From contig NZ_CP038810.1 of assembly GCF_004797125.1 (NCBI RefSeq), forward strand, positions 1,612,001 through 1,676,000: a stretch of 64,000 nucleotides of DNA, written 5' to 3'. How positions within the stretch are numbered: position 1 is the first letter of the stretch; each line of letters opens with the position of its first letter. Made by a program: the position numbers and the translations under genes. The notes below the pieces were generated by a model that searched no databases, was not told where the DNA came from, and saw nothing but the letters and a program-made list of their open reading frames with translations. Source of the DNA: Flavobacterium sangjuense. GTDB taxonomy: Bacteria > Bacteroidota > Bacteroidia > Flavobacteriales > Flavobacteriaceae. This document shows positions 33,278 through 44,194 of the stretch, piece after piece.

Positions 33278-34807
33278 ATGAAGCAAAAGTACATTCTTTT
33301 TATCTTGTTTTCCTTATTTGTTTTTAAAGGAAATGCCCAAAGCAATTACGCTGTAAATTCAATTCCATTTCAACCATATTCAGGAACATTGTCGCCATTA
33401 ACAACAGCTGATGACATCTATTCACCGGTAATAACTATGCCGTTTAGTTTCGATTTTTACGGAAACAGTTATACTCAGTTTGTCGTTAGTACCAACGGAT
33501 ATGTTGATTTTAGAACATCATTAGCGGGTCAGTACTCACCTTGGAATGTCGTATATACCATTCCAAATGCTGGATTTGGAACCAAAAATTCCATTTTAGG
33601 ATGCTATGAAGACTTAAATAATAATAGTACTGGCGCTATCGGAACCATAACTAGCGGAGTTTATGGAACAGCACCTTACAGAAAATTTGTAGTTTATTTT
33701 AACAATCAACCTCATTTTCAGTGCAATAGTACAGTTGCGTTGAGCTCTTCTCAAATCATTTTGAGTGAAACCACCAATATAATTGATGTGCAGGTAATTA
33801 ATAGGACACCATGTTTAGCCTGGCAACAAGGTAGAGGTGTGATTGGTTTAGTTAACCTTGATGGAACTCAAGCCATAGCGCCACCGGGAAGAAACACAGG
33901 AAACTGGAGTGCAAACCAGGAAGCTTGGCGTTTCTATCGTCCAGGATATTATCCAAGCTATTCTTTTGTGCGTTGTGATGATGATTCAGATTCATTTGTA
34001 ACGTTTGATTTAACTGTGGCAGCAAATGATTTATCACCTGCTAATCCTTCTGCCATATCTTTTTTCGAGGATAATGCATTGACAATTCCGGTTGCAAATC
34101 CAACAGCCTATATAAATACTTCAAATCCAAGAACGGTTTATGCCAGCGGAAATGGAGCGATAAGATCAGTTATTCTAAGTGTTATCGATTGTAGTATTGA
34201 TGCTGATAGTGACAGCGTACCTTCGGCAACAGAGGATGTAAATAATGACACCAATTTGGCTAATGATGATACTGATTTAGACGGAATTCCAAATTATTTA
34301 GACAATGATGACGATGGTGATTTGGTGTTAACCAGCGTAGAATATGTTTTTGCCAGAGTCAATCCGCGTCAGGTAAATGTTATTTTAGATACTGATTTAG
34401 ACGGAATTCCAAATTATTTGGATAACGATGATGATGGAGATGGTTTGTTAACCTGGAGAGAAGACTACAATCACGATGGAAATCCGGGTAACGATGATAC
34501 TAACAGCAGTGGTACTGCTGATTATCTTGAATCTTCAGTAGCTTTGGGTGTGACGCCTGTTAGCATAGACAATAACAGTATAAAAGTATTCCCAAATCCG
34601 GCAACTAATGTGCTGAATATTCAAAATAATACTGATGATACTAACGCTTCGATAGAAATTTATTCCATCAGTGGAGCCAAAGTAAAATCATTAAAAACAA
34701 CACAAGCATTGACAACAATCGCTGTTTCGGATTTGCAAAGCGGTGTTTATTTTGTCAAAGTAACAATGAACAACCAAGTGGGTAATTATAAATTCATTAA
34801 GAACTAA
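33278..34807 (+). CDS. Secreted protein with Asp-rich repeats and T9SS sorting domain
   Basis: A 509-residue exported protein. It has a signal peptide (about 20 residues, ending GNAQS), then a beta-rich region with the FSFDFYGNSYTQFVVSTNGYVDF motif common in gliding-group surface proteins. Two Asp-rich, thrombospondin type-3-like calcium-binding repeats (DTDLDGIPNYLDNDDDGD) lie at about residues 330-400. The last 75 residues form a type A T9SS sorting domain (VFPNPATNVLNI ... YKFIKN). The protein should cross the outer membrane through T9SS and be anchored or released. A terminator follows. Confidence 0.88.
   Translation: MKQKYILFILFSLFVFKGNAQSNYAVNSIPFQPYSGTLSPLTTADDIYSPVITMPFSFDFYGNSYTQFVVSTNGYVDFRTSLAGQYSPWNVVYTIPNAGFGTKNSILGCYEDLNNNSTGAIGTITSGVYGTAPYRKFVVYFNNQPHFQCNSTVALSSSQIILSETTNIIDVQVINRTPCLAWQQGRGVIGLVNLDGTQAIAPPGRNTGNWSANQEAWRFYRPGYYPSYSFVRCDDDSDSFVTFDLTVAANDLSPANPSAISFFEDNALTIPVANPTAYINTSNPRTVYASGNGAIRSVILSVIDCSIDADSDSVPSATEDVNNDTNLANDDTDLDGIPNYLDNDDDGDLVLTSVEYVFARVNPRQVNVILDTDLDGIPNYLDNDDDGDGLLTWREDYNHDGNPGNDDTNSSGTADYLESSVALGVTPVSIDNNSIKVFPNPATNVLNIQNNTDDTNASIEIYSISGAKVKSLKTTQALTTIAVSDLQSGVYFVKVTMNNQVGNYKFIKN
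34271..34440 (+). repeat. Direct repeat with 120-bp period coding for Asp-rich motifs
   Basis: Bases 34271-34320 and 34391-34440 are near-identical 50-bp copies, exactly 120 bp (40 codons) apart. The first 29 bases are the same in both. They code for the two TDLDGIPNYLDNDDDGD-type motifs and suggest recent duplication or gene conversion. Confidence 0.85.
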
Positions 34808-34842
34808 TTTGAACTGCTACTGGCAGTCCTCCTCTTAATATC

Positions 34843-34872
34843 AAAGGTTTGGCGAAAGCTGAACCTTTTTTA
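34843..34872 (+). terminator. Terminator after the T9SS-secreted protein gene
   Basis: AAAGGTT (34843-34849) pairs with AACCTTT (34862-34868), with an inner GC/GC pair around a GAAA loop, followed by T residues. It lies 36 bp after the stop codon. Confidence 0.82.
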
Positions 34873-34902
34873 TTTGTACTAACTTTCATTTGATTATTTT
34901 TG
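34873..34902 (+). promoter_or_regulatory. Bacteroidota-type promoter for the FAD oxidoreductase
   Basis: TTTG (34873-34876), an 18-bp spacer and TATTTTTG (34895-34902) match the -33/-7 consensus closely. The promoter begins where the preceding terminator ends. The start codon is 17 bp after the -7 box. Confidence 0.7.
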
Positions 34903-34918
34903 CCAAACAAATCAAACT

Positions 34919-36481
34919 ATGCCACAAGAACTCCAACTTCAAGTTTCACCCGAAATAGCAGCTAACGAAAGTTTGCTCTATGAACACGTGGCGCAATTAG
35001 TTCGGGTTTCTACAAAATTGGTTCATAAAGTTGTAATTCTGAAACGTTCTATTGATGCGCGTCAAAAATCTATTAAAGTCAATCTTAAAGTTTCGGTTTA
35101 TTTAATAGATGAAAAATATACCGAACAAAAAATCGAACTTCCCAATTATGAAAATGTTTCCAATAAACAGGAAGTAATCATTGTTGGTGCTGGTCCGGCC
35201 GGACTTTTCGCAGCTTTGCAATTAATAGAATTAGGTTTAAAACCAATAATTATCGAACGCGGAAAAGATGTTCGTGGTCGTCGTCGCGATTTGAAAGCCA
35301 TCAATGTTGACCATATTGTCAATGAAGATTCAAATTATTGTTTTGGTGAAGGCGGCGCAGGAACCTATTCTGATGGGAAATTATATACGCGTTCCAAAAA
35401 ACGTGGTGATGTTGACAGAATTCTGCAGTTGTTAGTTGGTTTTGGTGCTACGCCCGATATCTTAGTCGAAGCGCATCCGCATATCGGGACCAATAAATTA
35501 CCGCAAATCATTCAGGACATTCGGGAGAAAATTATCGAATGTGGCGGAAAAGTGTTGTTTGAAACCAGAGTGACTGATTTCGTTATTAAAAACAATGAAA
35601 TGCAAGGCGTTGTTACTCAAAATGGCGATACAATTTCGGCCAATAAACTAATTTTAGCAACCGGACATTCGGCTCGTGATATATTTGAATTACTAGATAA
35701 GAAAAAGATTTTTATCGAAGCAAAACCTTTTGCATTAGGCGTTCGTGCGGAACATCCTCAGGAATTGATTGATAGAATTCAATACAGTTGCGATTTTCGT
35801 GGAGACTATTTACCACCTGCACCATATTCCATTGTGAAGCAGGTTAATGGTCGCGGAATGTATTCGTTTTGTATGTGTCCCGGTGGCGTAATTGCACCTT
35901 GTGCTACAAGTCCGGGAGAGGTAGTAACCAATGGTTGGTCACCATCTAAACGAGATCAGGCGACAGCCAATTCGGGTATTGTGGTCGAATTAAAACTAGA
36001 AGATTTTAAACCCTTTGCCAAATTCGGAGCTTTAGCAGGAATGGAATTCCAGAAAAGCATCGAACAAAAAGCCTGGCATTTGGCTGGAGAGACACAAAGA
36101 GTTCCGGCACAGCGAATGATTGATTTTACCAGAAGTAAAGTGTCGGAATCAATTCCAAAAACATCTTATGTTCCGGGAACAACTTCAGTTGAAATGGGAC
36201 AGGTTTCCCCTGGCTTTTTAACCCAAATTATGCGGGAAGGCTTTATTGAATTTGGAAAAGCAATTCGTGGTTATATGACTAATGATGCTATTCTTCATGC
36301 ACCGGAAAGCAGAACTTCCTCACCGGTACGCATTCCGCGTGACAACGAAACTTTGGAACATACACAAATCAAAGGTTTGTATCCTTGTGGAGAAGGTGCC
36401 GGATTTGCAGGTGGAATTATTTCTGCCGCTATTGACGGTGAAAAATGTGCCTTGAAAATTGCACAAAGTCTCTCAAAATAA
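34919..36481 (+). CDS. FAD-dependent dehydrogenase, COG2509 family
   Basis: A 520-residue flavoprotein. About 85 N-terminal residues of alpha/beta character precede the dinucleotide fold (VIIVGAGPAGLFAALQLIE, about 88-106) with ERGKDVRGRRRD and FGEGGAGTYSDGKLYTR. ATGHSARD and the C-terminal PCGEGAGFAGGIISAAIDG complete the FAD site. This is the widely conserved uncharacterised COG2509 group; substrate and physiological role are unknown. It appears monocistronic, with its own promoter. Confidence 0.85.
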   Translation: MPQELQLQVSPEIAANESLLYEHVAQLVRVSTKLVHKVVILKRSIDARQKSIKVNLKVSVYLIDEKYTEQKIELPNYENVSNKQEVIIVGAGPAGLFAALQLIELGLKPIIIERGKDVRGRRRDLKAINVDHIVNEDSNYCFGEGGAGTYSDGKLYTRSKKRGDVDRILQLLVGFGATPDILVEAHPHIGTNKLPQIIQDIREKIIECGGKVLFETRVTDFVIKNNEMQGVVTQNGDTISANKLILATGHSARDIFELLDKKKIFIEAKPFALGVRAEHPQELIDRIQYSCDFRGDYLPPAPYSIVKQVNGRGMYSFCMCPGGVIAPCATSPGEVVTNGWSPSKRDQATANSGIVVELKLEDFKPFAKFGALAGMEFQKSIEQKAWHLAGETQRVPAQRMIDFTRSKVSESIPKTSYVPGTTSVEMGQVSPGFLTQIMREGFIEFGKAIRGYMTNDAILHAPESRTSSPVRIPRDNETLEHTQIKGLYPCGEGAGFAGGIISAAIDGEKCALKIAQSLSK

Positions 36482-36512
36482 AGTAAATTTCATTTTTGTT
36501 TTTTAAAAAGTA

Positions 36513-36537
36513 GGGTGATGACATTTTGTGTTGTCTA
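36513..36537 (+). promoter_or_regulatory. Candidate ECF-type promoter for the Kazal lipoprotein
   Basis: GGGTGATGACA and GTCTAA lie in the 83-bp gap before the lipoprotein gene and do not match TAnnTTTG. I suspect an ECF sigma promoter, because an ECF sigma/FecR pair is encoded just downstream. This is inference without a known consensus for this sigma. Confidence 0.3.
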
Positions 36538-36564
36538 ACCTTTAAACACTAAATTATAAATAAG

Positions 36565-37617
36565 ATGAAAAAAATTAAAATTTTACTATTGTTACTTACA
36601 GTAACTGTTGCAGGTTTCTATTCTTGTACCGATAATGATCCGGTTGAAAACGAAGTGGTAACTACCAAAAGTATTTCGTTGAGAACCACATTAAACGAAA
36701 TCAAAAAAGCCAACAATATCAGTGGGAAAAATGGTTTAACTACAGATGACCAATTTTTTTGCTTCGGGTTTGTTTATCCTATTAGCCTTTCATATAATGA
36801 CGGAACAGTAATTACCGTTTCTTCATATGAGGGATTAATTGAAATTTTAACTAATGAAACCTCTACATTATATATTGAGGGAATCGAATTTCCTTTCCAA
36901 GTGCAACAAGAAGGAGCAGTTACTACTATAAATAATGAAGCCGAATTCTTTGCATTGATTGATGACTGTACTTTTTATACTGTGAATGATATCGTCTTTG
37001 ATTTTACTTGTTATTCCATTGTTTTCCCGATTTCGGTTGTGAATGCAAATGGTCAAACTATAGTGGTAGATGATCAAACGGAATTGGTAAACTTAGCTTC
37101 ACCAACGCCTACAGGAACATCTTATCAATTGGATATTGTATTTCCAATCTCAGTTGTTCAAAACGATCAGACTATAGTTATTAATAATTTATATGAATTC
37201 TTTGATTTGAATAATGATTGTCCAAGCAGCTCATGTGTTTGTCCTGCCGACTATAATCCGGTTTGTGTACAAACTTCTGCTGGTGTGGTTGAATACTCGA
37301 ATATGTGTCATGCAGAATGTGATGGATTTACTGCTGCCGATTTAGTATCCTGTGATCCTGTGACAACTGTTAATTTCGGAACAGGTTTAGGTTCGTGTTT
37401 TAATATGGCTTATCCGGTACAGGTTCAATCTGGTGGTGCTTTGGTAACGGTGAATTCTGATGACAATTTGCGTCAGTATTATTTCCCGGCACTGTCAAGT
37501 ATTCCAGCCTTTGTTTATCCGGTAACGGTAACATTTAATAGTGCAACAGGTCCGGTAACAGTACTTATAACCAGTAGTGCTCAGTTTGAAACGGCTATCA
37601 CTAATAATTGTAATTAA
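36565..37617 (+). CDS. Repeat lipoprotein with an internal Kazal-like domain
   Basis: A 350-residue predicted lipoprotein. The lipobox ends AGFYSC with Cys21 as the lipidation site. A repeated unit of about 30-45 residues ((I/V)xFP(I/F)xV...(I/V)T(I/V)NxxxEFxxL) occurs six times, starting near residues 66, 107, 149, 189, 278 and 316. Pairs of units are bracketed by Cys: 66-135, 149-219 and 278-349. Between the second and third pair sits a Kazal-type domain (224-263: CVCPADYNPVC, YSNMCHAEC, C263). Kazal domains usually inhibit serine proteases. Its target is unknown. It directly precedes an ECF sigma, FecR and TonB-receptor set. Confidence 0.8.
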   Translation: MKKIKILLLLLTVTVAGFYSCTDNDPVENEVVTTKSISLRTTLNEIKKANNISGKNGLTTDDQFFCFGFVYPISLSYNDGTVITVSSYEGLIEILTNETSTLYIEGIEFPFQVQQEGAVTTINNEAEFFALIDDCTFYTVNDIVFDFTCYSIVFPISVVNANGQTIVVDDQTELVNLASPTPTGTSYQLDIVFPISVVQNDQTIVINNLYEFFDLNNDCPSSSCVCPADYNPVCVQTSAGVVEYSNMCHAECDGFTAADLVSCDPVTTVNFGTGLGSCFNMAYPVQVQSGGALVTVNSDDNLRQYYFPALSSIPAFVYPVTVTFNSATGPVTVLITSSAQFETAITNNCN

Positions 37618-37655
37618 TTGATTTTAAATAAGAATTGGGAAAAATCAATGTTACG

Positions 37656-37681
37656 ACACAACCTTAGCGATAAGGTTGTGT
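37656..37681. promoter_or_regulatory. Strong hairpin just upstream of the ECF sigma gene
   Basis: ACACAACCTTA (37656-37666) and TAAGGTTGTGT (37671-37681) form a perfect 11-bp stem with a GCGA tetraloop. It lies 38 bp after the lipoprotein stop and 14 bp before the sigma start codon. The U-tract after it is poor. It could be a terminator, an attenuator, or a structure limiting translation of the sigma factor. Confidence 0.7.
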
Positions 37682-37695
37682 TTGTAATTTAAGCT

Positions 37696-38220
37696 ATGAA
37701 AGAAGAAAACCAAAATGTTAAGCTCTGTTCCGAAGCGGTTTTTCGCTCGGTTTTTGACACTAATTTTAAAGTGTTGCGTAACTTTTTGGTATATAAATTC
37801 CGGGGCGATATAGAAAGTGCCGAAGATGTAGCTCAAAATGCTTTTGTTAAACTTTGGGAAAATTGCGGAATAATTCAACCCGAACAAGCCAAAAGCTTTT
37901 TATACACTACAGCTATTAGGCTTTCGCTGAATAGAATTAAGCACAATCAGGTAGTGAATAATTATGATTTGCAATTTAGACCCAAATCATCACACAAAGA
38001 ATCACCGGAATTTTTAATGGAGGAAACCGAATTAAAATCCCTGTTAGAAAAAGCCATAAATGATTTGCCCGAAAAGCAAAGAACCGTATTTTTAATGAAC
38101 CGTTTTGACAATCAGTCTTATACTGAAATTGCAGCATCATTGGATTTATCGGTAAAAGCGGTGGAAAAACGAATGCACCAAGCATTATTGTCCTTGAGAA
38201 AAGTAGTAAAAAACGTTTGA
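37696..38220 (+). CDS. ECF RNA polymerase sigma factor (FecI-like)
   Basis: A 174-residue extracytoplasmic-function sigma factor. Region 2 contains AEDVAQNAFVKLWEN and region 4 has LPEKQRTVFLMNRFDNQSY, TEIAASLDLSVKAVEKRM. No region 3 or N-terminal extension is present. It overlaps or abuts the FecR-type gene and is followed by an STN-type TonB receptor, the classic cell-surface signalling order. It would direct transcription of its own cassette and perhaps of the adjacent Kazal lipoprotein. Confidence 0.9.
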   Translation: MKEENQNVKLCSEAVFRSVFDTNFKVLRNFLVYKFRGDIESAEDVAQNAFVKLWENCGIIQPEQAKSFLYTTAIRLSLNRIKHNQVVNNYDLQFRPKSSHKESPEFLMEETELKSLLEKAINDLPEKQRTVFLMNRFDNQSYTEIAASLDLSVKAVEKRMHQALLSLRKVVKNV

Positions 38221-38231
38221 AAAATAATACG

Positions 38232-39134
38232 ATGGAAGAGATGAACGAAACGTATTTATCCGATTGGTTGGCCAATAAAATTACAGACGAACAATTAAAA
38301 GAATTGGTTTCGGCAGAAGATTTTGAGGCATTTCAAAAGATAAAAAACACGCTAAGCAATTTTGAATTCAGCAATCCTGATTTGGAACAAAACTTTAGCG
38401 CAGTCAAGCAAAAGCTGGCTACTAAAAGTCAAGCTAAAACAAAAGTAATTCCGCTTTGGCGTTATGCTTCGATTGCGGCTTGTTTGCTGGTAATGTTTGG
38501 TTTGTATCATTTTTTTATAGCCGAAAATACCATAACAACTGCTTTTGGTCAAACACAAATAATCACCTTGGCCGACCATTCCAAAGTATCTTTAAATGCC
38601 AAATCAACACTGGTTTACCGCAACAATTACAGCTACAAACGAGCCTTGTGTCTCGATGGTGAAGCTTTTTTTGAAGTCGAAAAAGGAAGTTCGTTTACTG
38701 TAAAAACATCGCTCGGCGATATTCACGTTTTGGGAACCAAATTCAATGTGATAGCATTCAAAGATTTCTTTGAAGTAAAATGTTATGAAGGCAAAGTGGA
38801 AGTAACACAAAAAGGAAAATCAATCATTTTAACACACGGAGAAAGCGTTCGCTATTACAATCATACGGTTGAAAATTGGGCAGATGATACAACTGAAAAG
38901 CCAACCTGGATTTCGGGAGAAACGTCTTTTAAAAATGTACCGATGCGCTATGTAATTGACCAGTTTAAAAACCAATACAATGTTGAAATCGACTATCCGA
39001 AAACCATTGAAAACATAAAATTCACAGGAACTTTTACACATAAAGAATCAACCGTAGCGCTGCAAACCATTTGTTTGCCGTTGCATTTAAAATTTGGCAA
39101 AGACCAAACCGGAAAAATTATCATTTCTAAATGA
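38232..39134 (+). CDS. FecR-family anti-sigma factor
   Basis: A single-pass inner-membrane regulator. The cytoplasmic N-terminus (about 75 residues) would hold the sigma factor, followed by the membrane helix YASIAACLLVMFGLYHFFIA. The periplasmic FecR domain contains TLADHSKVSLNAKSTLVY and GEAFFEVEKGSSFTVKT. The C-terminal DUF4974/STN-like part has FKNVPMRYVIDQFKNQYNVEI. ATG at 38232 is chosen over an in-frame TTG at 38217 that would overlap the sigma gene by 4 bp. The gene overlaps the receptor gene by 4 bp. Confidence 0.88.
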   Translation: MEEMNETYLSDWLANKITDEQLKELVSAEDFEAFQKIKNTLSNFEFSNPDLEQNFSAVKQKLATKSQAKTKVIPLWRYASIAACLLVMFGLYHFFIAENTITTAFGQTQIITLADHSKVSLNAKSTLVYRNNYSYKRALCLDGEAFFEVEKGSSFTVKTSLGDIHVLGTKFNVIAFKDFFEVKCYEGKVEVTQKGKSIILTHGESVRYYNHTVENWADDTTEKPTWISGETSFKNVPMRYVIDQFKNQYNVEIDYPKTIENIKFTGTFTHKESTVALQTICLPLHLKFGKDQTGKIIISK

Positions 39135-41425
39135 AGAAACTAATGTTGTTAGCCTTCTTTTTGTGCTGGTTACAATTTTCCTGGTCACAAAAAAAGAAGT
39201 CGTTTTTTTATGCTGATGCAAAACTCACCAAAGTGCTTTCTGATGTCGAGGAAGCATTTGATGTTAAATATTCCTATGTCGATTCTTTGGTAATTCCACA
39301 GCGATTTTCATTGCCAAAAAAGTTATATGACTTAGATGAAATTAATAATGAAATTGAAAAGCAATCGACTTTAAAAATCATCAGGATTAACCAGCGTTTT
39401 TATTCTCTTAATAAAACGGAAGCCAAAGGAACGGAATCAAACATAACACTGCTCAAAGAAGTTATAGTCGAAGAGTTTTTGGCAAAAGGAATTCAAAAAA
39501 CCAATCAACATTATAGCATCTTTCCACAAAAAGTGCAAACGCTTCCGGGAATAACGGATGCCGATATTTTGCAATCACTACAACAGTTACCTGGAGTTAA
39601 AAGTCCGAATGAAACGGCAACAGGCTTATATATTCGCGGCGGCACTTCTGACCAGAATTTAATCCTGATGGATGGCATTCGGTTGTATCATCCCGGGCAT
39701 TTATTTGGCATGATTTCTAGTATTAATCCTAATGTGGAGCAAACCGTGGATTATTACAATAAGGCTGTGAATCCAAGGTTTGGTGAAAGAGTTTCGGGAA
39801 TTATCGATATCAAATCCACAGACAAAATCTCAGATAAGTTAAAAATTAATGCGGGAATCAACGCTCTGAATGCCGATATTTATCTGAAAGCATCATTGAT
39901 TAAAGATAAATTAGGCTTGCAATTTTCTGCCCGAAAATCGTATACCGAATGGCTGCAATCGCCTACGTTTAATCAATTGGAACGCAAGGTTTTTCAGAAT
40001 ACCGACTTCAAAGAATTTGATAATGACAACCAATTTCAGTTTTATGATTATTCAGCAAAATTGAATTTCAAACCCAATCCAAAAACTGAAATTTCACTCT
40101 CGGCTTTGGTTATTAAAAATGATTTAGATTATAAAAGTGTTATCAAGACCGACAGTATCAGTAACCAAAGAATGAAAGTAGAAAATTATGGATTCAGTCT
40201 GAATTGGACACAAAAATATACTCCGAAATTCAAGCAGCAAACTTTGGTTTACTACTCGCTTTACAGTTTTGATTACCTCAAGAAACAGGATTATGATAGC
40301 AATAAATTTGAAGCGTTCAAGAAATTAAATAGAGTAGTAGATTCGGGCGCTGAGTTGCGTTTTGGTTATCAAATGAATGAACAATCTAATTTAGATTTTG
40401 GTTATCAGGTTTTCGGAAATGATATTTCACATTTGTTCAATAGTTACAATCAGGATGTTGGAATTGATTTAGGTTTGCGACATCTTTACAATGTTACTCA
40501 TGCCGGATATGTTCATTACCAAAGTGATTTTGGCAGTTGGAATATCCAGCCCGGCTTGCGTTATAACTTTTATAGCCAAATAAAAGCCTCGAGTTTCGAA
40601 CCGCGTTTGATGCTTCAAAAGAAACTAACTGAATCGTTAATCTGGCAAGTTTCTTATGAACGAAGAAGCCAGATTTTGAGTCAGGTTCGCGAAAATGCGG
40701 CTAACGATTTGAGTCTGGAAAACTATGTTTGGGTATTGTCTGATAATGGTGAATATCCAATTCAGAAAGCAAATCAGTTTGCTTCCGGAATCATTTTCAA
40801 AAAGAATAACTGGCTTTTAGATGTTGATACTTATTACAAAAATATCACTGGAATCACTTCGTATACTTTGGGTTTTTTGGGACAGAATGACAATGACATT
40901 CATCACGGAAAAGGATTTACCAAAGGAGTAGATGTTTTGCTTCAAAAAAGCCATAATTCATGGCGTGCTTGGATGACATACACTTATCAGGATTCACAGA
41001 ATAAGTTTGAGAGTTTAAATGACGGGAATTATTTCAGCTCCAATGCCGATATCAAGCACAATTTTACGATTGCGTTCAATAAAAAATGGAAGAACTTTTT
41101 GTTTACAACAGGATGGTTTTGGCACAGCGGAAAACCATTTAGCACGGTTAATGATTCGGGAGAAATCACAGCTTACAATTCCGAAAGATTACCTGATTAT
41201 CATCGTTTAGATTTTTCTGCCAGTTATCAGTTTCAAAACCAAAAAGGAACTATTTTTAAAGTTGGCGTATCGGTTTACAATCTTTACAACCACAGCGATC
41301 TTATCAGTAAAGAATTCGAGCGAAAGTATGCAAGTCTTCAGGATTTCATCACGCCGCGTTATGAGATGCAGAATTATTACACTTTGGGCATCATGCCAAA
41401 TGTTTTTTTTAGAGTGAATTTTTAA
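39131..41425 (+). CDS. TonB-dependent receptor with N-terminal signalling (STN) domain
   Basis: A 764-residue outer-membrane receptor. The signal peptide is MKKLMLLAFFLCWLQFSWSQ, then an STN-like domain (about 22-95) that would contact the FecR protein. The plug (about 130-230) has LQQLPGVKSPNETATGLYIRGG and LILMDGIRLYHPGHLFG. The rest is beta-barrel, ending in the aromatic FFRVNF. No SusD-like gene or CarboxypepD_reg domain is present, so it is not a standard glycan-utilisation (PUL) receptor. The ligand is unknown. The receptor, FecR and ECF sigma make a complete transenvelope signalling unit. Confidence 0.9.
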   Translation: MKKLMLLAFFLCWLQFSWSQKKKSFFYADAKLTKVLSDVEEAFDVKYSYVDSLVIPQRFSLPKKLYDLDEINNEIEKQSTLKIIRINQRFYSLNKTEAKGTESNITLLKEVIVEEFLAKGIQKTNQHYSIFPQKVQTLPGITDADILQSLQQLPGVKSPNETATGLYIRGGTSDQNLILMDGIRLYHPGHLFGMISSINPNVEQTVDYYNKAVNPRFGERVSGIIDIKSTDKISDKLKINAGINALNADIYLKASLIKDKLGLQFSARKSYTEWLQSPTFNQLERKVFQNTDFKEFDNDNQFQFYDYSAKLNFKPNPKTEISLSALVIKNDLDYKSVIKTDSISNQRMKVENYGFSLNWTQKYTPKFKQQTLVYYSLYSFDYLKKQDYDSNKFEAFKKLNRVVDSGAELRFGYQMNEQSNLDFGYQVFGNDISHLFNSYNQDVGIDLGLRHLYNVTHAGYVHYQSDFGSWNIQPGLRYNFYSQIKASSFEPRLMLQKKLTESLIWQVSYERRSQILSQVRENAANDLSLENYVWVLSDNGEYPIQKANQFASGIIFKKNNWLLDVDTYYKNITGITSYTLGFLGQNDNDIHHGKGFTKGVDVLLQKSHNSWRAWMTYTYQDSQNKFESLNDGNYFSSNADIKHNFTIAFNKKWKNFLFTTGWFWHSGKPFSTVNDSGEITAYNSERLPDYHRLDFSASYQFQNQKGTIFKVGVSVYNLYNHSDLISKEFERKYASLQDFITPRYEMQNYYTLGIMPNVFFRVNF

Positions 41426-41472
41426 AAGTTATTAGTTACAACGTTTTAGTTAATTTCTTTCCGCTAAACGAT

Positions 41473-41503
41473 GTTGATGGTCTTAACCAAAATAGTAATT
41501 TTA
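41473..41503 (+). promoter_or_regulatory. Putative promoter for the GapN-like dehydrogenase
   Basis: GTTG (41473-41476), a 19-bp spacer and TAATTTTA (41496-41503) resemble the TTTG/TAnnTTTG consensus with one mismatch in each box. The start codon is 16 bp downstream. Confidence 0.35.
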
Positions 41504-41518
41504 TAAAAAATCATTTTT

Positions 41519-43099
41519 ATGAATACTATTCCAACCGAATTTCAAATTACCAAATTATTACACCAAGATACTTATTTAGTTGACGGTCAGCTAAAAAAAT
41601 GGACTGGCGAAACCTCAGAAGTTTATTCTACTATTTCCTCAACCGAAAATTATGCGCCAACATTATTAGGTTCCATTCCAACGATGGGAGAAGCTGCTGC
41701 TGCTGAAGTAGTAGAATCGGCTGTTGCTGCTTATAACAACGGACAAGGATTGTGGCCAACGATGAAAGTCATTGACCGTATCAGATGCATGGAGAATTTT
41801 GTTACGCAAATGAAAGCTGCCCGTAGCGAAGTAGTCAAATATTTGATGTGGGAAATCGGAAAATCATTACCTGATTCAGAGAAGGAATTTGACAGAACGG
41901 TTGAATACATTTATGACACAATTGAGGATTACAAAGAATTAGACAGAAACAATGCGCGATTCACCAAAAGCCAAGGCGTGAATGCCATGGTTCGACGTGG
42001 GCCATTGGGAGTTGTGCTGTGTCTTGGACCTTATAATTATCCTTTGAACGAAACTTTTTCATTGCTAATTCCCGCCATCATCATGGGAAATACGGTGATT
42101 TTTAAACCCGCAAAACACGGCGTTTTATTGATTTCGCCATTGCTTGAAGCGTTTAAAAGCAGTTTTCCAAAAGGCGTTATCAATATCGTTTACGGCAGAG
42201 GAAGAGAAGTGGCTTCACCTATTATGAAATCGGGGAAAGTAGATATTCTTGCTTTGATTGGAAATAGCAAATCGGCAATTGCTTTGCAGGATTTGCATCC
42301 AAATAAAAACCGTTTGCGTTTGATTTTGGGATTGGAAGCTAAAAATCCCGCGATTATTTTGCCAGATGCGGATTTGGATTTGGCAATTCAGGAATGCATT
42401 ATGGGAACGTTGTCTTTCAATGGGCAACGTTGTACAGCCTTGAAAATTCTTTACGTACACGAATCAATTGCGGCGGAATTCAACAGAAGATTTACGGATA
42501 AAGTTGATGCACTTCCTTTTGGAAATCCATGGGAGAAAGGCGTTTCATTGACACCATTACCCGAAAAAGACAAACCCGATTATATTCAGGAATTAATTGA
42601 TGATGCTATAACTAAAGGTGCTAAAGTCATTAATGCAAAAGGTGGAGAACGTTCGGATAATTATATTTTTCCAGCTGTTTTATTTCCGATAAACAAAGAA
42701 ATGCGTGTGTATCACGAAGAGCAATTTGGGCCTGTGATTCCAATTATAACTTTCAAAGACATTCAGGAACCGTTGAATGATATGGCAGAATCAAACTATG
42801 GACAACAAGTGAGTTTGTTTGGGAAAGACATTAAAACCATTGCGCCGCTTATTGACACTTTGGTGAATTTGGTTTGCCGTGTGAATTTAAACAGTTCCTG
42901 TCAACGTGGTCCGGATGTGTATCCGTTTACGGGAAGAAAAGATTCGGCTGTGGGAACCTTGAGTATTCATGATGCCTTGCGTTCGTTTTCTATTCGAACG
43001 TTTGTAGCTTCCAAAGACAATGCGTATAACAATGCGATTTTACAGGAATTGCTCAATAGTAAGGAATCGAATTTTATAAATACTGATTATATTTTATAA
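41519..43099 (+). CDS. gapN: NADP-dependent glyceraldehyde-3-phosphate dehydrogenase, GapN-like
   Basis: An aldehyde dehydrogenase superfamily enzyme of 526 residues. The catalytic Cys305 lies in [10 protein letters not shown] and the general base Glu273 in [18 protein letters not shown] and the RCTALK form of the Cys loop are typical of non-phosphorylating GAPDH, which makes 3-phosphoglycerate and NADPH. The N-terminus is longer than in streptococcal GapN. Activity on another aldehyde cannot be excluded. The gene stands alone, with a terminator directly after it. Confidence 0.82.
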
Positions 43100-43100
43100 C

Positions 43101-43130
43101 AAAAAAGCCCCGAGCAATCGGGACTTTTTT
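43101..43130. terminator. Bidirectional terminator between gapN and the SOD gene
   Basis: CCCGA (43109-43113) pairs with TCGGG (43118-43122) around a 4-nt loop; flanking GC/AC bases make one mismatch and A- and T-runs extend on the two sides. It serves both convergent units. Confidence 0.85.
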
Positions 43131-43137
43131 ATAAAAT

Positions 43138-43914
43138 TTATTTCTTCGCTGTCGCTTCTTCATAGCGTTCGGAAACTTTTTTCCAATTGATTATTTTGAA
43201 GAAGTTGTCAATGTATCTTTTTCGTTTGTATTGATAATCTAAATAATAAGCATGCTCCCAAACATCGAGATTTAAAATTGGTGTGCCCGAAACGATTTGC
43301 TTTGGCATCAAAGGATTATCCTGATTTGGTGTACTGGTTACCTGTAATTTTCCTGTTTTATCAACAACCAGCCAAGCCCAACCTGAACCGAATTGTTTGT
43401 CGGCTGCATCAGTAAATTGTGTTTTAAACACATCAAATGAGCCAAAATCCCGGGTAATAAGTGTTGCTAACGTATCTTTAGGTTGTCCGCCTGATTTAGG
43501 TGCCATGCCTTCCCAAAACAAACTGTGATTGTAATAGCCACCGGCATTATTTTTTAAATCGGCATTGCTGCCATCACATTTTTTTAAGATGTCTTCAATG
43601 CTTAAATCGATTAATGTTGGATCTTCAACTACTAATTTATTTAGGTTGTTGGTATAGGTCAAATAATGTTTGGAATAATGCACTTCCATTGTTAGTATAT
43701 CAATGCTTGGTTCAAGTTCATTGTATTGATAAGGTAATTTGGTAAGAGAAAATTGTCCCTCAATGGCGCTTACGTCATCAGGTTGCCCAATAGTGATTTT
43801 TTCTTCGGCTGATGGCAACGGCACTTCAACAACTTCGGTAAGTTTTTTTCTTTTGCAGGATGGTAGCAATAGTATAAAAGAAAAGCATAAAACAATTGAA
43901 AAAATCTTCTTCAT
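43138..43914 (-). CDS. Exported Fe/Mn superoxide dismutase lipoprotein
   Basis: A 258-residue superoxide dismutase with an export signal. The start at 43914 gives MKKIFSIVLCFSFILLLPSC, a lipoprotein signal peptide with Cys20 as anchor. A longer open frame upstream runs through the neighbouring ACBP gene and is not used. The SOD fold begins at FSLTKLPYQYNELEP. Metal ligands fit HYSKHY, YYNHSLFWEGM and LDVWEHAYYLDY. GSGWAWLV and STPNQDNPL are also family marks. Metal preference is not settled. It lies 4 bp after the ACBP gene. Confidence 0.87.
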   Translation of the reverse strand: MKKIFSIVLCFSFILLLPSCKRKKLTEVVEVPLPSAEEKITIGQPDDVSAIEGQFSLTKLPYQYNELEPSIDILTMEVHYSKHYLTYTNNLNKLVVEDPTLIDLSIEDILKKCDGSNADLKNNAGGYYNHSLFWEGMAPKSGGQPKDTLATLITRDFGSFDVFKTQFTDAADKQFGSGWAWLVVDKTGKLQVTSTPNQDNPLMPKQIVSGTPILNLDVWEHAYYLDYQYKRKRYIDNFFKIINWKKVSERYEEATAKK

Positions 43915-43918
43915 AAAT

Positions 43919-44194
43919 CTACTTTTTACTATTTGCAATTTCGTGTATTGCTTCTGTGTATAATTCTTTTGCTTCGTCAATGGATAGATGGCTAATTTGC
44001 ATCCATGCATTAGTTTTAAAGGCATTTCGCAAGTCAAAATCAGCAGAGTTATTATAGTTAATAGTGCCAAAAGTTGCCTGCTTATAATAGGCATACAATC
44101 GCAATTGCACATCTTGCGGAAGCTCAGATTGTGACATTTTTGAAGCAATTTCTACTGCTTCCTGAAATCGAATTTCTAATTCTTTTTCGTCCAT
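43919..44194 (-). CDS. Acyl-CoA-binding protein (ACBP)
   Basis: A 91-residue four-helix acyl-CoA-binding protein, a family best known in eukaryotes but found in some bacteria including flavobacteria. The core pattern LPQDVQLRLYAYYKQATFG followed by AWMQISHLSIDEAKELY matches the ligand-binding helices. It would bind long-chain acyl-CoA in the cytoplasm. It sits 6 bp after psd and 4 bp before the SOD lipoprotein gene, in the phospholipid synthesis run, which fits a role in acyl supply. Confidence 0.9.
   Translation of the reverse strand: MDEKELEIRFQEAVEIASKMSQSELPQDVQLRLYAYYKQATFGTINYNNSADFDLRNAFKTNAWMQISHLSIDEAKELYTEAIHEIANSKK

Follow-up and report, generated by a model that had tools for sequence, protein, structure and literature searches.

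A conserved ECF sigma factor/FecR/TonB receptor gene set of Flavobacteriaceae with a predicted lipoprotein partner

Introduction

ECF sigma factor/FecR-controlled SusCD glycan loci occur in Bacteroidota. They are built from the same kinds of signalling parts as the gene set described here and are found in the same phylum. Unlike in SusCD loci, no SusD was found among the eight proteins scanned around the locus (33278-44148). In the FecI-FecR-FecA (iron citrate) system of Escherichia coli, the N-terminal domain of the receptor signals through FecR to the sigma factor, FecI drives fecA, and sigma-70 drives fecIR, according to an excerpt of PMC9249621. The locus of this study resembles Fec in having a FecI-like ECF sigma factor, a FecR with a FecR_C domain, and a TonB receptor whose N-terminus is a putative signalling domain. 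As in the Fec arrangement of that excerpt, the sigma factor would drive the receptor gene (in cassettes of divergent gene order) but not its own. Unlike Fec, the locus has no iron-carrier or uptake gene among the same eight scanned proteins, and what the sigma factor is predicted to target throughout is a lipoprotein built from an undescribed domain. A further known system combines a surface lipoprotein with a TonB-dependent protein. A similar pairing is predicted here, where the two proteins would work jointly, and here an ECF/FecR relay belongs to the gene set. Among the open-licence titles listed, none dealt with such a cassette, placed Kazal lipoproteins next to ECF genes, or described a GTAGGG promoter for Bacteroidota.

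Materials and methods

The window is a 64,000-nucleotide stretch of Flavobacterium sangjuense (contig NZ_CP038810.1, positions 1,612,001 to 1,676,000), and its lipoprotein is called LIPO. "FxFP" is a name coined in this analysis for the ~71-residue domain of LIPO. Relatives of LIPO were collected by a scan of genome contigs, and the best 80 of 97 confirmed stretches gave 77 distinct loci. A promoter-blind census of 60 FecR_C loci from 45 family genomes, among the matches listed, comprised 52 loci with frames below ~350 aa and 8 long ones. The 52 were fetched from 57 listed FecR_C matches below ~350 aa; the other five (two from the genome of the window, three already fetched) are known to bear FxFP. 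A sigma factor of this type was defined in the census as one scoring above 80 bits by phmmer; the 31 census loci that have one also have a similar receptor.

Results and discussion

The first-pass annotation had read the locus as a series of lipoprotein, ECF sigma factor, FecR, and TonB receptor genes. The ORF list and Pfam confirmed four consecutive genes, all on the + strand, at 36565-41425. LIPO (36565..37617; ORF, homologues, model mean pLDDT 78.7) is a lipoprotein with three FxFP domains, the last two of which are separated by a Kazal-like module. The ECF sigma factor (37696..38220) is FecI-like, with Pfam Sigma70_r2 and r4_2 above cut-off and NCBIfam TIGR02985 slightly below it (124.3 vs 126.4 bits). 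The FecR-type anti-sigma factor/regulator (38217..39134) matches FecR (PF04773, 63.4 bits) and FecR_C (PF16344, 40.5 bits), each above cut-off; its likelier start is the ATG at 38232, in preference to the TTG. The TonB-dependent receptor (39131..41425) has plug and barrel above the Pfam cut-off and a putative STN-like domain at its N-terminus. In a scan of receptor-family N-termini, STN was found in 7/20 and FecR_C in 14/20; the N-terminus of the window's own receptor matches neither family, and a profile search against the PDB gave a putative anti-sigma factor as best match (E 0.055).

The genes on both sides are ordinary: one for a FAD-dependent protein upstream of LIPO (34919-36481) and one for an aldehyde dehydrogenase downstream of the receptor (41519-43099). 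A hairpin lies between LIPO and the sigma gene (37650..37688, + strand; RNA fold z -4.69; terminator-like scan) and is a putative terminator or attenuator. The same gap folds to -16.6 kcal/mol or lower in 21/25 co-directional relatives, as single folds without shuffles. A strong hairpin that is kept in relatives suggests reduced read-through into sigma. Elsewhere in the window, a protein with a Por_Secre_tail (type IX secretion tail) is encoded two genes 5' of LIPO (33278-34807) and has strong relatives at the equivalent place in three other loci (L007, L011, L013). A surface polysaccharide cluster lies at 1568-22946, with NeuB, a DegT aminotransferase, glycosyltransferases, and an O-antigen ligase among the scanned proteins.

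LIPO starts with a lipoprotein signal peptide and lipobox (36565..36627, + strand), recognized from the sequence and an export-signal consensus. Cys21 is invariant in LIPO alignments A1, A2, and A3 (A3 omits L032 and L036, masked N). The following residues, TDNDP, resemble SDDFE, the surface-export consensus for lipoproteins of F. johnsoniae given in an excerpt of PMC5080379. FxFP domains 1 (36757..36969), 2 (37006..37221), and 3 (37393..37605), all on the + strand, were located by profile match. Domain 1 modelled alone with AlphaFold reached a pLDDT of 95.4 and has the order bbb-a-bbb-a; the FxFP domain belongs to no Pfam family, and none of its PDB matches is convincing. LIPO is single-copy in its 3.13-Mb genome, and the full-length protein is patchy in near relatives (5/120 genomes, its own included). 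At L019:12998-13816, a second, shorter copy of LIPO lies directly 3' of the receptor gene.

Sigma, FecR, and receptor genes together adjoin LIPO in 69/77 loci (best 80 of 97 stretches), and at least sigma does so in 70/77. The conserved linkage of lipoprotein and signalling genes, for which the first-pass annotation had proposed a gene-neighbourhood check, was thus borne out. The gene order is co-directional in 26 loci, mostly from Flavobacterium or Bacteroidota records and one from Polaribacter, and divergent in 44, from Psychroserpens, Winogradskyella, and others. No sigma gene was in view in the remaining seven (L022, L031, L032, L033, L047, L063, and L083, of which L031 and L083 are at contig ends). 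The lipoprotein and signalling genes could have stayed together through common descent with no regulatory link between them, and many co-directional loci indeed also retain the FAD enzyme gene upstream. However, the linkage outlasts change of gene order and strand, the promoter-like site described below precedes LIPO in both gene orders, and -35 variants match within cassettes. Inheritance alone is scarcely credible.

The upstream regions of LIPO relatives share GTAGGGT...GTTGTC. In the window, this promoter-like site, GTAGGG-N15-TTGT, lies before LIPO at 36510..36534 (+ strand; pattern and conservation) and is the predicted target of the adjacent ECF sigma factor; it is the sole match of the pattern GTAGGGTN{13,16}TTGT in the window. 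A regular expression that permitted spacers of 13-18 nt found the site before LIPO in 66/77 loci, with a spacer of 15 nt in 66/66. After correction of two starts, the site was exact in 63 of the 70 sigma-bearing loci, deviated at one position in 6, and deviated at two in the last. Among the seven loci without sigma, the site is exact in L083, has one mismatch in L047, two in L063, and four in L022, L032, and L033; L031 lacks upstream DNA. When 250-nt stretches were drawn at random from these loci, 57/3850 held a site with at most one mismatch; some of these may coincide with true sites.

Placement by script over 1,218,113 bases assigned 67 sites to the position before LIPO, 40 to the gap between sigma and FecR, and 3 elsewhere, two of which are cassette sites by their coordinates (L079, L080). 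The site in the sigma-FecR gap faces fecR-receptor and is present in 40/44 divergent loci by script, or 41/44 with L080. No match precedes the sigma gene in divergent cassettes, and no second site of 15-nt spacing was found in the 26 co-directional loci. Since the divergent cassettes have no site before the sigma gene, the loop would boost lipoprotein, anti-sigma factor, and receptor in concert and would thereby be self-limiting. The motif differs from the flavobacterial sigma-A motif TAnnTTTG and from the ECF-like motif with a CGT box reported for F. psychrophilum, both as given in an excerpt of PMC9723704. We infer that the adjacent sigma factor reads the GTAGGG-N15-TTGT site. The conserved site before LIPO lends support, at the level of sequence, to the earlier idea that the sigma factor induces the lipoprotein.

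The genome of the window has two FecR_C loci, the one in the window and one at C1:3082907, and both are of this type. The second (C1:3072000-3090000) is a complete cassette with sigma, FecR, and an 840-aa receptor. Its FxFP lipoprotein lacks a Kazal module and ends in a tail that looks lipocalin-like by eye, and a small lipocalin-like lipoprotein is encoded as well. The promoter pattern has three matches in this genome, namely before LIPO and before these two lipoprotein genes of the second cassette. A reversed control pattern also has three, so the positions of the matches, not their count, are the evidence. The sigma-FecR gap of the second cassette contains GTAGGG without TTGT at the right spacing.

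The census asked nothing of the promoter. Scored with an FxFP profile that had been iterated on the same loci, 28/31 census cassettes with this type of sigma factor have an FxFP protein vs 0/29 of the others (Fisher p 4e-14, among the matches listed). No FxFP protein was in view in L149, L161, and L178, and L161 and L178 have no obvious substitute among their partly listed ORFs. A phylum-wide search for the FxFP domain, with at most 14 candidates scored per genome, was positive in 40/395 genomes: 35/41 Flavobacteriaceae genomes and 5 in the rest, on the assumption that a partly shown list of misses is ordered by kinship. Of the distinct loci from this search, 29 were examined, and in 28 of them an ECF sigma gene adjoins the FxFP gene; in this set, ten fetched stretches were hand-chosen, L206 equals L220, and L198 is the window. 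The exception is L199, with no sigma within the 3.2 kb seen around its FxFP gene. The sigma-adjacent loci include other classes (L218-L222). In L223-L225 and L227, of a Flavobacterium branch, FxFP proteins stand beside a different ECF sigma factor of 183 aa, and FecR was not found by phmmer; the one FxFP protein scanned among these four loci, that of L223, has an Lcl_C-like tail.

The Kazal-like module of LIPO (37222..37356, + strand) was recognized by profile against PDB chains and by structural match. It is a divergent domain with the six-Cys Kazal fold, and residues ~221-266 share Cys spacing and fold with the Kazal inhibitors LDTI and greglin. Unlike these, the module sits inside a bacterial lipoprotein, flanked by FxFP domains, and its predicted P1, placed by analogy to LDTI, is Ala (Ala228) in the window and often acidic in relatives. 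Over 118 Kazal loops, the residue predicted at P1 is Glu in 35, Asp in 27, Thr in 17, Ala in 15, and another in 24.

The first-pass annotation had suggested a protease- or peptide-related signal. In such a defence circuit, the receptor would sense the signal and the Kazal lipoprotein would inhibit an outside serine protease. The fold does match, at low Z, inhibitors solved bound to subtilisin and trypsin. Kazal is present in 76/79 FxFP proteins of the 77 LIPO-relative loci vs 1/45 elsewhere, the first figure being inflated by the Kazal stretch among the query patterns of that scan, and the Kazal label needs 3 changes on the receptor tree (FastTree, 114 rows) vs 36.3 when shuffled. Against this explanation, 44/45 FxFP proteins outside the LIPO-relative loci have no Kazal module and mostly belong to cassettes of the same kind, Asp/Glu occupies the predicted P1 in 62/118 loops, and the alignments show 3 more residues after PVC than the inhibitors that it matched have there. 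The near-confinement of Kazal to one clade weakens the protease reading. The suggested signal was not supported: Kazal marks one clade, FxFP is the constant element, and a protease-defence circuit is decidedly unlikely.

Other, paralogous cassettes use GTAGGA or TCAGGA, and both sites of one cassette mostly share the hexamer. With AGG and the spacer held fixed in the pattern, the same -35 hexamer occurs at both sites in 29/33 cassettes outside the LIPO-relative set in which both sites were found (40 examined). Eighteen stretches of other genera (L120-L137) had been chosen by promoter pattern, which makes the census subset, assembled without regard to the promoter, the fair test. There, the hexamers agree in 17/21 cassettes (26 examined), compared with a shuffled mean of 6.2 and 0/100,000 shuffles as high, although related sequences inflate shuffle tests. 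Two variants coexist within one genome in two cases, L159 with L184 (G144) and L177 with L187 (G154). The matching -35 variants supply naturally occurring sigma-promoter pairs that may be insulated from one another.

With a probability of roughly 0.7, we propose that the conserved four-gene set works as follows. The TonB receptor would bind an outside ligand, and its N-terminal domain would signal to FecR. In turn, FecR would release the ECF sigma factor to transcribe LIPO from GTAGGG-N15-TTGT and, in divergent cassettes, fecR-receptor too. LIPO would be flipped to the cell surface and may work there as a partner of the receptor, with the FxFP domains as the constant part and Kazal, lipocalin-like, or Lcl modules as a presumably exchangeable, ligand-facing part. 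Because matched sites precede receptor and lipoprotein and their pairing is near-constant, a surface receptor-lipoprotein pair is the most economical reading. Judged by sequence, we regard the locus as a FecIRA-like signalling unit whose presumed lipoprotein partner is new and dedicated to it.

Two other explanations concern the role of the lipoprotein. It could be output only, a surface coat or adhesin with an FxFP stalk and C-terminal tips that is induced by the sigma factor without a physical link to the receptor. This would suit the variable, modular C-termini of FxFP proteins (Kazal, lipocalin-like by eye, and Lcl_C below cut-off) and the proteins that look like FxFP repeats only (L125, L126, L226). 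The close coupling with one receptor type and the matched lipoprotein and fecR-receptor sites fit a pair better, and we consider the output-only explanation rather unlikely. Alternatively, the lipoprotein or a piece of it could be what the receptor senses. Such self-monitoring would agree with the near-constant lipoprotein-receptor pairing and with the scanned neighbours, which hold no uptake gene; however, a positive loop driven by what it makes itself would require a further trigger, and this alternative is highly improbable.

The receptor-lipoprotein pair can be extended, tentatively and at somewhat less than even odds, to a new family-wide surface-sensing class of Flavobacteriaceae. FxFP would be the dedicated extracellular partner of the ECF/FecR/STN-receptor relay, capture heads would be swapped in evolution (Kazal modules to catch proteases, lipocalin-like ones to catch small greasy molecules, and Lcl to catch other ligands), and each cassette would be insulated by its own -35. 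For the sampled Flavobacteriaceae genomes, FxFP marks a class of lipoproteins as likely products of specific signalling units. The predicted LIPO promoter lends itself to a simple reporter assay. The question of what SusD-less receptors sense becomes experimentally approachable via the binding partner of the lipoprotein.

Among the eighteen pattern-chosen stretches of other genera, 14 hold a sigma factor of this type, and 13 of these 14 have an FxFP protein. The exception is L120, a cassette of the same kind with a site cluster before a thioredoxin-like gene and no FxFP gene; at L120:6935-7963 there are three tandem GTAGGG sites, the last of them before that gene. One genome (G304; L130-L134 and L137) contains 25 copies of GTAGGGT-N14-TTGT, some before genes without FxFP, possibly an expanded regulon.
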